This document shows, one piece after another, positions 9,293-13,613 of a DNA stretch of 64,000 nt. Origin of the DNA: Adhaeribacter aerolatus. GTDB lineage: Bacteria; Bacteroidota; Bacteroidia; Cytophagales; Hymenobacteraceae. The notes beneath the pieces were generated by a model. It was not told where the DNA came from, did not search any database, and saw nothing but the letters and a program-made list of their open reading frames with translations. The position numbers and the translations under genes are program-made. The first letter of the stretch is position 1. Every line of letters starts with the position of its first letter. The stretch spans positions 1 to 64,000 of the forward strand of contig NZ_BJYS01000043.1 in assembly GCF_007991635.1 (NCBI RefSeq), written 5' to 3'.

Positions 9293-10273
9293 ATGTATCT
9301 AAACCATATTACAGAAGCTATCGGTAATACGCCCCTGGTTAAGCTAAATAAAGTAACAGATGGGCTAGCGGCTACCATTTTGGCCAAAGTAGAATATTTT
9401 AATCCGGGAAACTCAGTTAAAGACCGGATGGCCATTAAAATGATTGAAGATGCCGAACAGGCGGGCCTTTTAAAACCTGGCGGCACCATTATAGAAGGTA
9501 CCTCGGGCAATACCGGCATGGGGCTGGCTTTAGCCGCATCGGCCAAAGGCTATAAATGCATTTTTACGCTTACCGATAAGCAAAGCCCCGAAAAAATAAA
9601 TATTTTAAAAGCAGTTGGTGCCGACGTAATTGTTTGTCCGACGAATGTGGCGCCGGAAGATCCGCAATCCTATTATTCGGTAGCCAAACGCTTAAACCAG
9701 GAAATACCCAATTCTTTTTACCCCAACCAATACGATAACCTCTCGAATACGGCGGCGCATTATGCCACCACCGGTCCGGAAATCTGGCAGCAAACTGAAG
9801 GCAAGGTAACGCACTTTGCCAGTGGCGTAGGTACGGGCGGCACCATCTGTGGCATATCTAAATACCTGAAAGAGCAAAACCCGGCTATTAAAGCCATTGG
9901 CCTGGATACGTACGGCTCGGTATTTAAGAAATACAAGGAGACTGGTATTTTCGATAAAAATGAAATTTACCCTTATAAAACCGAAGGAATTGGTGAAGAT
10001 ATTCTGCCCAAAAACGTGGATTTTAACCTGATTGACTTATTTATTAAGGTTACTGATAAGGATGGCGCTTTGATGACCCGGCGATTGGCGAAAGAAGAAG
10101 GATTGTTTGTAGGATGGTCTTGCGGAACGGCTGTTCATGGCGCTTTAGAATATGCCCGCGAACACTTAACCCAAGACGATGTTTTGGTGGTGCTGCTGCC
10201 CGACCATGGTACCCGGTATCTGGGTAAAATTTACAACGACGATTGGATGCGGGCCGAAGGCTATCTTGATTAA
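9293..10273 (+). CDS. Cystathionine beta-synthase-like PLP enzyme (cysteine synthase family)
   Basis: A 326-residue cytoplasmic PLP-dependent beta-replacing enzyme. PLP-binding Lys43 lies in 'NPGNSVKDRMA', the substrate loop is GTSGNTG (69-75), and the phosphate loop is GVGTGGTICG. Several motifs point to the cystathionine beta-synthase branch rather than CysK: 'NTAAHYATTGPEIW', 'EGIGEDILPKNVD' and YNDDWM near the end. The two C-terminal regulatory CBS domains of full-length eukaryotic-type enzymes are absent. The likely reaction is serine (or O-acetylserine) plus homocysteine or sulfide. It is monocistronic with its own terminator and divergent from sucD. Confidence 0.88.
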   Translation: MYLNHITEAIGNTPLVKLNKVTDGLAATILAKVEYFNPGNSVKDRMAIKMIEDAEQAGLLKPGGTIIEGTSGNTGMGLALAASAKGYKCIFTLTDKQSPEKINILKAVGADVIVCPTNVAPEDPQSYYSVAKRLNQEIPNSFYPNQYDNLSNTAAHYATTGPEIWQQTEGKVTHFASGVGTGGTICGISKYLKEQNPAIKAIGLDTYGSVFKKYKETGIFDKNEIYPYKTEGIGEDILPKNVDFNLIDLFIKVTDKDGALMTRRLAKEEGLFVGWSCGTAVHGALEYAREHLTQDDVLVVLLPDHGTRYLGKIYNDDWMRAEGYLD

Positions 10274-10334: not shown

Positions 10335-10395
10335 AGCAAATTTGCTTTCCTGTTTCATTGAGTGAATTATCAAAGTTGGAGTATAAAGCTTGAAC

Positions 10396-11667
10396 ATGAT
10401 AGAATTTTTTAGAAGATTATTTGAATCTGCCGATTTCATGCCGCATGGGCATTGCTATCTCTGGCAATCGGATATATTGTTTTTAACGGTTCTGGGCGAT
10501 GGGCTTACCGGCCTGGCTTATTTTACCTTGCCGTTTATGCTTTTTTACATTGTTAGAAAGCGCGAAGATCTGGCCCACCGTAACATGTTCCTGCTATTCG
10601 GTACATTTATTATGGCTTGCGGCGCCACGCATTTTGTGGATATCTGGACAATCTGGTTTCCGACTTACCGCCTGGCCTCGGTCGTAACCGTGGTAACCGG
10701 CTTGGTTTCGGCAGCTACCGCTATCGCTATGTTCCGGGCATTACCCCAAATCCTAACCTTAGCCAGTAATTCGCGGCTGGAAAATGCAAATCAGCAATTA
10801 CTGGACGAAATTGGTAAGAAAGAAGCCGCGCAGGGTGCTTTGCGCAAAATAAACGACGAGTTGGAACAACGCGTACAGCAACGAACTGCCCAGCTCATCC
10901 GGGCCAACCGCGAGCTGGAAAAAGAAATTGAGCACCGTAAAAAAGTGGAGAAAGCCAATCTGGTAAAAAATGCCGAGCTCATCCGGATTAATGGCGACCT
11001 CGATAATTTTGTTTATTGTGCATCCCACGACCTGAAATCGCCGCTGGTAAATGCCGAAGGTTTAATAATGGCCCTGCGCGAAGAACTACCCAATCAGAAC
11101 CCGCAGGTAAGTGAAATCATAAACCGGCTGGAAAATTCTATTACGCGTATGCATCATACGGTATTGGATTTAACCGAAGTAAGTGCCTTGCAGAAAGGAA
11201 CAGAAAAATCTGATTTTAAAGTGCTTTCTTTTAATGATGTTCTAGAGGAAGTAAAAATTAATCTGGCCGGAGAAATTGCTGCTTCCGGGGCAGAAATAGC
11301 CGCCGATTTTACTGCTGCTGATAAAGTTAAGTTTACCCATAAAAATCTTTACAGCGTAATTTATAACCTGGTAAGCAATGCCATTAAGTACCGGGCAAAA
11401 GATAGAGGGCCTCGGGTGCAACTTACTACACAGGAACACGGTAACTACATAATGCTGACCGTGGCCGATAATGGCATTGGCATAGATTTAATAAAGCACG
11501 AGAAAAAGATATTCTCCTTGTTTAAGCGCCTGCACGAACATACGGCGGGTAGCGGAGTAGGTTTGTTCATCGTGAAGCGCATTTTGGAAAACAACCAGGG
11601 CCGGGTAGAAGTGGAAAGCAAAGTGGGAGAGGGAACAGTTTTTAAAGTTTTTTTTCCAAAACAATAG
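10396..11667 (+). CDS. Histidine kinase with ethylene-receptor-like copper-binding membrane domain
   Basis: A 423-residue inner-membrane sensor kinase. Residues about 25-120 form three transmembrane helices resembling the ethylene-binding domain of plant ETR1: D35, Y42, P46, I72, C75 and H79 fall at the same spacings as ETR1 D25, Y32, P36, I62, C65 and H69, and the motif 'ACGATHFVDIWTIW' is nearly the plant one. Then come a coiled coil (about 125-200), a HisKA domain with phospho-acceptor H211 in 'CASHDLKSPL', and a HATPase_c domain with 'ADNGIGID' and 'GSGVGLFIVKRI' boxes. The start ATG 10396 is preferred over a TTG two codons earlier. A receiver gene follows 20 bp later, presumably its partner. 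Ligand sensing is inferred. Confidence 0.9.
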   Translation: MIEFFRRLFESADFMPHGHCYLWQSDILFLTVLGDGLTGLAYFTLPFMLFYIVRKREDLAHRNMFLLFGTFIMACGATHFVDIWTIWFPTYRLASVVTVVTGLVSAATAIAMFRALPQILTLASNSRLENANQQLLDEIGKKEAAQGALRKINDELEQRVQQRTAQLIRANRELEKEIEHRKKVEKANLVKNAELIRINGDLDNFVYCASHDLKSPLVNAEGLIMALREELPNQNPQVSEIINRLENSITRMHHTVLDLTEVSALQKGTEKSDFKVLSFNDVLEEVKINLAGEIAASGAEIAADFTAADKVKFTHKNLYSVIYNLVSNAIKYRAKDRGPRVQLTTQEHGNYIMLTVADNGIGIDLIKHEKKIFSLFKRLHEHTAGSGVGLFIVKRILENNQGRVEVESKVGEGTVFKVFFPKQ

Positions 11668-11687: not shown

Positions 11688-12107
11688 ATGAAAAAATTAA
11701 GGAGTATTTTACTAGTAGATGATAATGATACCAGCAACTTTCTGAACGAACGATTGCTAAAGCGGATGGCTGTAACCGACGAAATAAAGGTTTTAAGTAA
11801 TGGTAAAAGCGCCTTTGAGTTCCTGGAGAAGTTAAACCGGGCCGGCAGAAGTAGTATCGAAACCAAACCCGAACTTATTTTATTGGATATAAATATGCCC
11901 GTGGTAGATGGTTTTGAATTTCTGGAGTTATACAACCAATTGGACGAGCAGTTCCGGAGCGATATTCTGGTGGCTATTTTGTCTACCTCTAATCATCCAC
12001 AGGATACCAGCCGGGCTAGCGATTTTAATGCCTATTATATAATAAAGCCCCTCACCATCGAAAAAGTAGAAGCCTTGCTGTCGATGCATTATGCTGGCGC
12101 CGAATAG
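11688..12107 (+). CDS. Single-domain response regulator
   Basis: A 139-residue CheY-like receiver with no output domain. The acidic pocket is D11-D12, the phospho-acceptor is D67 in 'LILLDINMPVVDG', the switch residue lies in LSTSN, and the conserved Lys is in 'YYIIKPL'. It starts 20 bp after the ethylene-receptor-like kinase, so it is very likely phosphorylated by it and signals by protein contact. The preferred start is ATG 11688; the frame opens 18 bp earlier at a TTG. Confidence 0.92.
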   Translation: MKKLRSILLVDDNDTSNFLNERLLKRMAVTDEIKVLSNGKSAFEFLEKLNRAGRSSIETKPELILLDINMPVVDGFEFLELYNQLDEQFRSDILVAILSTSNHPQDTSRASDFNAYYIIKPLTIEKVEALLSMHYAGAE

Positions 12108-12478: not shown

Positions 12479-13339
12479 TCAAAAAGTAAAGTTAAACAGT
12501 ACGCCGGCTTTAATAATTATATTTATAATCAGAGCCATGCCGGCCAGAAACAGGCCAATACCAATCAGCAAATCAATAGCCGGCAGGTTCACATCATCTC
12601 TTTTAAAATATTGGCCCAAAGCAGCCCCTATTGCAAAGGCGGTCATCAGCGGCACACTCTTAAGCCAGTCTACATGCCCCAGCCAGAAATGGGTACAAAG
12701 CCCGGTAAAACTGGTAACCGTTAAAATAAACAATGATGTGGAAGTGGCGATGCGGGCTGGCATATTAAAAACCTTAATCATGGCCGGCGTTTGTAGAAAA
12801 CCGCCGCCTATGCCAAACAAACCCGCTACTGTGCCGGTTACCAGGCCAAATAAAGCTACAACACCGCCGTTGATGCGGTAAGCCAGGTGTTTGTGGTGGT
12901 TTTTGCGGATAAAAGAAGTGGGTAAATGTGTAACGCGGTACATAACGCCACTTTTGCGGTTTACCACCGGTTTATCTTTAGGTGCGCCTAAAATTAAAAA
13001 GCTGATAATAATAACAAAAAAGGCAAATATAAACTGCAACTCTACTACCGGCAGAAAAACTACCAGAAAAGCACCGGCCACAGTACCCGCCATAGCCGGG
13101 AACTGAACCAGTGAAGCTACCAGGTAATCAATATTCTTTTCGCGGTAGTTAAAAAAAGTAGCAATCAGCGAGGCCGGAAACATAGCCGACATGGTACTAC
13201 CAATGGCGAGTTCGATAGGGAAGTGAAAAAATAAAATTAGAATGGGAACCATAAATACGCCCCCCCCGAAACCGACTACCGTACCAAAGGTACTTACCAG
13301 TAATCCTACCAGCATAATAATTAAAGTTTCGGTTGGCAT
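12479..13339 (-). CDS. TSUP family permease (sulfite exporter TauE/SafE family)
   Basis: A polytopic inner-membrane protein of about 286 residues with roughly eight hydrophobic helices arranged as two related halves. Each half holds a glycine-rich signature: 'VVGFGGGVFMVP' in the first and 'LFGIGGGFLQTP' in the second. The family moves small sulfur-containing or organic anions such as sulfite, sulfoacetate or taurine products; the substrate here cannot be read from sequence. The frame extends nine codons upstream to a GTG at 13366; the ATG at 13339 directly precedes helix 1 and is preferred. The first signature is encoded by a run of eight G (13260-13267). Confidence 0.88.
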   Translation of the reverse strand: MPTETLIIMLVGLLVSTFGTVVGFGGGVFMVPILILFFHFPIELAIGSTMSAMFPASLIATFFNYREKNIDYLVASLVQFPAMAGTVAGAFLVVFLPVVELQFIFAFFVIIISFLILGAPKDKPVVNRKSGVMYRVTHLPTSFIRKNHHKHLAYRINGGVVALFGLVTGTVAGLFGIGGGFLQTPAMIKVFNMPARIATSTSLFILTVTSFTGLCTHFWLGHVDWLKSVPLMTAFAIGAALGQYFKRDDVNLPAIDLLIGIGLFLAGMALIINIIIKAGVLFNFTF

Positions 13340-13613
13340 AACTTCAGGCAACGACAGTTCGGGCACACCGGCTCCGGTATATAGAAAAGCGGCTATTCTG
13401 TAATATATAGCTACTATAGTATACGTACTGAAACTAAGTAAAAGTGTTTTATTTATTTATACCCAATATACCAATTAAATTAAAGCATTTATTAGCCGGA
13501 CAACTTTAAAGTAATTTCATGAATACATTAAAATGTTTCTGGGCTAATTTACAGCATACGAATCGCCACTATTTATTTAGGTAAAGTAATGGATTTACTA
13601 TAATTAGCCTGAT

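Follow-up and report, generated by a model that had tools for sequence, protein, structure and literature searches.

The window, which is the whole 64,000-nucleotide stretch of Adhaeribacter aerolatus DNA that was analysed, encodes a sensor histidine kinase with an N-terminal ETR1_N domain and a separate receiver directly behind it. The most likely explanation of the kinase, to which we give about even confidence, is that it would be a Cu(I)/ethylene sensor with altered coupling. Three membrane helices would hold Cu(I) on Cys75 and His79, beside Asp35. The copper would bind ethylene or another small olefin of that kind, and this would alter how active the attached histidine kinase is. The kinase would phosphorylate the receiver encoded directly downstream, and the phosphorylated receiver would act on a partner. 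In the window lineage, ethylene binding would survive, possibly with changed affinity, and the signal coupling would be altered. We infer the binding of Cu(I) and ethylene and the phosphotransfer to the neighbouring receiver by analogy with AzoEtr1 of Azospirillum brasilense, and the partnership of kinase and receiver is read from adjacency and synteny. The domain family and the gene plan are known; two substitutions set the window lineage apart, and orthologues at one locus form a natural series. The features are listed below in positions of the window.

9293..10273, + strand: PLP-dependent enzyme PF00291 ("CysK-like"), a synteny anchor outside the system
10396..11667, + strand: ETR1_N sensor histidine kinase of 423 aa, with an ATG start and an in-frame TTG at 10390
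10435..10464, + strand: segment FMPHGHCYLW (residues 14-23) ahead of helix 1, with Cys20 and Trp23 conserved across many bacterial members
10474..10761, + strand: ETR1_N domain (PF25487), residues 27-122, with predicted helices 25-55, 62-87 and 91-121
10498..10500, + strand: Asp35, equivalent to ETR1 D25 by sequence comparison
10528..10530, + strand: Leu45 (I35 in ETR1; Ile in 118/124 homologues)
10618..10632, + strand: CGATH with Cys75 and His79, equivalent to the ETR1 copper ligands C65 and H69
10687..10689, + strand: Thr98, codon acc (K91 in ETR1; Lys/Arg in 111/124 homologues)
11002..11193, + strand: HisKA phosphoacceptor region, SHDLKSP with His211 (Pfam 26.5, slightly under the cut-off of 26.9)
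11344..11661, + strand: HATPase_c domain over the Pfam cut-off, with boxes NAIKYR, DNGIG and GSGVGL
11688..12107, + strand: single-domain receiver (Response_reg over cut-off) with VDDN, LLDINMP (Asp67) and IKPL (Lys120)
12479..13366, - strand: TauE/SafE family permease PF01925, a synteny anchor outside the system

The open reading frame truly belongs to a domain family that is already known and follows the known kinase-plus-receiver plan. The ETR1_N profile (PF25487) matches residues 27-122 of it with E=1.7e-32 and a score of 112 bits, where the cut-off is 27, and the kinase motifs are complete, which bears out the proposal of an earlier note on this DNA that an ETR1-type domain is carried by a histidine kinase. 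The motifs of a two-component system are all present in the sequence, namely the phosphoacceptor His, the ATP-binding boxes and the receiver Asp and Lys. The single-domain receiver that the note had placed after the kinase is found as a receiver-only open reading frame at 11688-12107. It begins 20 bases past the kinase stop and retains the acidic pocket, the phosphoacceptor Asp and the Lys. One copy of ETR1_N is found in the window genome (6.68 Mb, 95 contigs). In four pairs, Pontibacter sensors match those of genomes assigned to the window's family at 125 of 125 positions, which places the window in the Pontibacter family of the phylum Bacteroidota.

In published work on ETR1, ethylene binding needs seven residues, among which are D25, I35, P36, I62, C65 and H69, and the requirement for I35 rests on alanine scanning. 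In the papers drawn on, a bridge is predicted between the binding Asp and a conserved lysine (ETR1 Lys91) that couples binding to output, and a high-resolution structure of the receptor membrane domain is missing from them. The window protein was compared with the AtETR1 sequence. In this comparison D35, Y42, P46, I72, C75 and H79 correspond to D25, Y32, P36, I62, C65 and H69 with identical spacing, and the alignment exhibits both this spacing and the common CGATH motif, as had been noted earlier. Y32, which the earlier note counts among the residues that matter, is presumably also one of the seven. Six of the seven binding residues are therefore kept in the window protein, and the seventh, I35, is replaced by Leu45. 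Both copper ligands of ETR1 (Cys65 and His69) are matched by Cys75 and His79, and the position of K91 is occupied by Thr98. Judged by sequence comparison, the copper ligands are intact and the complete site is atypical; the description of the domain as "apparently intact" holds for the ligands and the six residues and fails at Leu45 and Thr98. The six-residue pattern (D-x6-Y-x3-P-x25-I-x2-C-x3-H) has one occurrence among the six-frame stop-to-stop open reading frames of at least 30 residues in the window, at the kinase. It is absent from 200 shuffles of the window open reading frames and from 836,758 residues of open reading frames without an ETR match in the fetched loci.

Because the copper ligands are kept, the bridge lysine is replaced by Thr and Ile35 is replaced by Leu, binding is expected to survive and coupling to be altered. 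The predicted Asp-Lys bridge cannot form with Thr98, so coupling is probably altered in the window lineage. Leu45, at one of the seven residues that ETR1 requires, counts against this explanation.

The two positions were counted among homologues. Together with the window, 165 loci yielded 149 distinct rows, of which 140 remained after rows more than 95% identical were dropped. Removing 16 rows without Cys75, without His79 or without a letter at position 98 left 124; L193 and L197, two of these, are without a letter at position 35. L001, L004 and L154-L187 had been excluded beforehand as duplicates or neighbourhood pieces. The counts cover the loci taken up from the listed matches, at most 30 per genome search, and the set leans towards the window, as 68 of the 124 homologues come from a scan of a species collection that was seeded with window peptides. 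Among the 124 homologues counted, all of which have Cys75 and His79, Ile occupies position 45 in 118 and Lys or Arg occupies position 98 in 111. All seven binding residues are present together in 100 of the 124 and not in the window protein. The lysine of helix 3 is replaced by Thr only in the window and in its congener L096 (2/124 homologues counted). AzoEtr1 and one cyanobacterial homologue have Ile45 and Lys98. Leu45 also occurs in two Pontibacter homologues (L022 and L023), both with Lys98.

Position 98 is non-basic in 13 of the 124, and 6 of these 13 have Asp35. The missing lysine had appeared rare in the first count, where 3 of 94 were non-basic with the window included, and this rarity was given up on the wider sampling. 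The 68 rows that were seeded by window patterns account for part of the low non-basic fraction in the full set. In the subset of 37 homologues found by the profile only, position 98 is K in 16, R in 10, L in 9, D in 1 and Thr in 1 (L096), which gives 26 basic and 11 non-basic residues. Loss of the lysine at position 98 is therefore, on these sequences, a recurrent minority state. Leu98 occurs in four homologues that keep Asp35 and the two copper ligands (L190, L191, L194 and L111), and these form a second kind of lysine-less receptor.

The recount of 11 in 37 weakens the reading of altered coupling and strengthens the possibility, which we consider real and well short of even, that the window protein is an ordinary and fully working ethylene receptor in which the substitutions at positions 45 and 98 make no difference or are compensated. 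Non-basic residues in 13/124 and 11/37 indicate that position 98 may matter less than in ETR1, and the four Leu98 homologues with Asp35 point the same way. An ordinary receptor would also be consistent with the retained copper ligands, Asp35 and six of seven binding residues, and with the conservative change of Ile to Leu, which recurs next to Lys98 in the two Pontibacter homologues. Against it, Lys/Arg98 is kept in 111/124 and its loss tends to accompany the loss of Asp35, in a comparison that ignores kinship. With and without Asp35, the basic and non-basic counts are 108 and 6 against 3 and 7 (Fisher p=2.4e-6 on 124 rows, kinship ignored), or 108 and 6 against 2 and 6 when the two rows lacking a letter at position 35 are left out. 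Statistical support for an Asp35-Lys98 linkage was set aside. In the tree of an earlier 123 rows the independent pairs with support number no more than 3 to 4, which is too few for a test.

Thr98 and Leu45 are common to the window protein and L096 (the same gene as L154), which belongs to another species of the genus and whose sensor is 74% identical. The two substitutions are therefore inherited and are not a sequencing error. The full-length tree exhibits the window protein and L096/L154 as sisters (97/95), and the orthologues of the genus with Lys98 (L155 and L156) adjoin them (95/93). The kinase-only tree agrees, with 98/97 and 96/91 for the same groupings. The terminal branch of the window protein is not flagged as long in the full-length tree. 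The sensor has dN/dS of about 0.08 against L154, so its divergence is mostly synonymous, at a dS of 2.3 that is saturated; this value also agrees with an ordinary receptor.

The structure of the window sensor was predicted with AlphaFold2 at a mean pLDDT of 92.3. The three-helix N-terminal domain of the earlier note is reproduced as three long helices (25-55, 62-87 and 91-121), followed by a fourth predicted helix at 125-144. The three are of membrane-spanning length and would be placed in the membrane. Asp35 is the 11th residue of helix 1, His79 is the 9th residue from the end of helix 2 and position 98 is the 8th residue of helix 3, so the three could lie at similar depth. A search of PDB sequences gave no match to the window protein at E up to 1, and Foldseek gave no structural match at E<=0.001. 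VIA-align against 420 chains gave a best Z of 9.8, which is ordinary for helical bundles and reports common arrangements only.

The closest known system that was compared is AzoEtr1 with AzoRR-etr1 of Azospirillum brasilense. Like the window, it has a three-helix ETR1_N domain, a histidine kinase and a receiver-only gene immediately downstream, and D35, C75 and H79 have identical numbering in both sensors. The window sensor is 42.2% identical to AzoEtr1 of strain Sp7 over residues 9-124 without internal gaps. AzoEtr1 was cloned from Sp245, and its first 130 residues are identical to those of Sp7. In the published study (PMC11819568), the first 130 residues of AzoEtr1 bind ethylene saturably in yeast and effects on biofilm were measured. 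AzoEtr1 differs from the window protein in having Ile45, Lys98 and a PAS domain.

The window protein resembles AtETR1 in six of seven binding residues, in CGATH and in a sensor joined to a histidine kinase. AtETR1 contains its receiver within the protein and has a GAF domain. In the window, the receiver is a separate protein, the GAF domain is absent and a bacterial PHGHCYLW segment precedes helix 1. The window protein also differs in Leu45 for I35, in Thr98 for K91 and in a stretch between helices 2 and 3 that is three residues shorter. SynEtr1 of Synechocystis, by its published description, is likewise a bacterial ETR1-type kinase that signals to a response regulator; it differs in being a light sensor as well and in having a regulator that switches on transcription of a small RNA.

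The PHGHC segment before helix 1 was considered as a second copper site and dropped, because its near-invariance was seen in a set that had been seeded by it. DFMPHGHC is one of the scan patterns, which makes the full motif look more conserved than it is. Of the 124 homologues, 56 come from outside the pattern scan, counting the window and the loci for which its sensor was the query. In these 56, position 17 holds His 28 times and Arg 24 times, His19 occurs in 25, Cys20 in 51 and Trp23 in 53. In the 37 found by the profile only, position 17 holds Arg 18 times and His 16 times, and His19 occurs in 13. Cys20 is present in 33 and Trp23 in 34 of these 37. As guesses, the two residues may serve in a dimer disulphide or in copper entry. 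Literature matches to HGHC as a letter string were unrelated, judged by their titles.

The gene order around the kinase was compared in relatives. The order of CoA ligase, CysK-like gene, ETR kinase and receiver is kept in L154, L155, L156, L022, L023 and L083, and CysK-like gene, kinase and receiver are kept in L158. The TauE gene follows in L158, L022, L023 and L083. In L020, L021 and L159 the kinase is found without these neighbours. The receiver adjoins the kinase in 8 of 11 family loci (the window and ten others). Two further loci exhibit other forms. L098/L157 (G296, same genus) is a second and longer ETR1_N kinase with Ser35 and Leu98 that is followed by a receiver. L113 (G304) is a divergent copy with a short open frame of 218 aa and changes at positions 20, 42 and 72, and is possibly decaying.

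The domain is present in 4 of 8 genomes of the window's genus. G300 (L185) is very close to the window, with a 99% identical SucD-like protein and an 88% identical receiver, and has a 93-base kinase remnant (71% DNA identity) between the CysK-like gene and the intact receiver. In G302 (L186) the receiver is kept and the kinase was not found. Neither kinase nor receiver is found beside the CysK-like gene of G299, and a close CysK-like match was not found in the incomplete assembly of G301 (78%). The loss of the kinase in such close relatives suggests dispensability and counts against the favoured explanation. The receptor may be losing its function in the window lineage, with relaxed ethylene sensing, a departing gene and a receiver that has another job. 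We regard this reading, which overlaps the favoured one, as unlikely. It would account for the remnant beside an intact receiver in G300, for the states of G302 and G299 and for the orthologous sensors without the copper cysteine that are described below. It is opposed by the complete window open reading frame and kinase motifs, by the mostly synonymous (saturated) divergence of the sensor from L154 and by a terminal branch that is not flagged as long.

In genus g142 of the same family, CysK-like gene, kinase, receiver and TauE gene are kept in 6 of 6 loci examined. The g142 orthologues (L114-L124, L161-L166) resemble the window in the syntenic locus, the kinase, the receiver and His79, and differ from it in a basic residue at position 98. 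In their sensors Cys75 is Gly or Ala, Pro46 is Ala or Ser, Ile72 is Ala or Gly and Asp35 is mostly Glu. Among the 11 g142 loci taken up, out of 15 g142 genomes with a match, Cys75 is lost in 11, His79 is kept in 11, Lys/Arg98 is kept in 11 and Glu35 is found in 10; L162, L164 and L165 are among the loci set aside beforehand and are not in this count. These orthologues without the copper site still pass the ETR1_N cut-off.

The fold is thus kept without Cys75 in 11/11 g142 loci examined, and the scaffold can therefore be of use where a copper site of the ethylene type is absent. This agrees with a further reading, to which we give little weight, in which the same fold senses another ligand, namely copper itself, another small gas or a hydrophobic molecule. 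The genomic setting of the window fits this reading as well. None of the five neighbours that were identified with Pfam is an ethylene gene; they encode RNase Y, a ferritin-like protein, a subunit of succinyl-CoA ligase, the PLP-dependent enzyme and the TauE/SafE permease. The sole search made for ethylene synthesis or breakdown, for ACC deaminase in the window genome, gave only matches below the cut-off. The retention of both copper ligands and Asp35, as in AzoEtr1 with its measured ethylene binding, argues against another ligand and for the Cu(I)/ethylene sensor. The readings overlap, and the confidences given to them are not meant to sum to one.

The states found at the locus are a complete site, a site with the bridge lysine lost (window lineage), a site with the copper cysteine lost and the acid-base pair of Glu35 or Asp35 with Arg/Lys98 kept, and a decayed kinase with the receiver kept. 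We propose, tentatively and with clearly less than even confidence, that the receptor has been taken apart in complementary ways at one syntenic locus, so that binding and output would be separable modules and the g142 protein would be an ethylene-blind kinase with another input. The recount of position 98 slightly weakens this proposal too.

According to the literature drawn on, bacterial ETR1-type members are known in cyanobacteria, proteobacteria and other phyla, in line with the earlier note, and ethylene binding is reported for the Synechocystis and Azospirillum receptors. That the domain stands out in Bacteroidota, as the note may be taken to suggest, is made less likely by its spread. 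The Pfam profile matches 18 of 296 genomes in the phylum sample, and the window sensor as query matches 86 of 390 genomes in the order sample, 7 of them of g142; some of these matches lack the copper site. With the profile, 34 of 204 genomes of the family match, 15 of them in the g142 form. In the class sample the profile matches 21 of 395 genomes, and 15 of these exceed the cut-off. L198-L204 from the class sample lie close to the limit of the profile, L198 slightly over the cut-off and the rest under it. One or both copper ligands are missing in L198 and L199, the two of these that the alignment took up. The statement that no ligand is established for a member from Bacteroidota was left uncontradicted by a non-exhaustive search of open-licence papers, in which we found no Bacteroidota ethylene receptor and no ligand or copper data for one. 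PF25487 was not found by name in the open-licence papers searched.

The scan of the species collection that was seeded with window peptides found 75 loci in several phyla, and 16 of the 75 have a diguanylate-cyclase-like output by the literal GGDEF/GGEEF motif. These are gammaproteobacterial open reading frames of 323-352 residues with an ETR1_N sensor and GGDEF/GGEEF (L059, L064, L066, L068, L070-L073, L078, L085 and L087-L092). Such fusions suggest ethylene-type control of cyclic di-GMP. Hybrid kinases with an ETR1_N sensor and a receiver are found in Legionella anisa and Legionella sp. PC1000 (L061 and L065). Among 72,556 plasmid records, 18 carry a relative, 7 of these from Azospirillum.

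How copper-bound ethylene switches its receptor is an unsettled question, and the series at this locus bears on it. The natural orthologues that have the copper site without the lysine, and those that have the charge pair without the cysteine, come with related kinases and receivers and would make binding and coupling separately testable in bacteria. The findings in this work also make Bacteroidota bacteria worth testing for ethylene responses.
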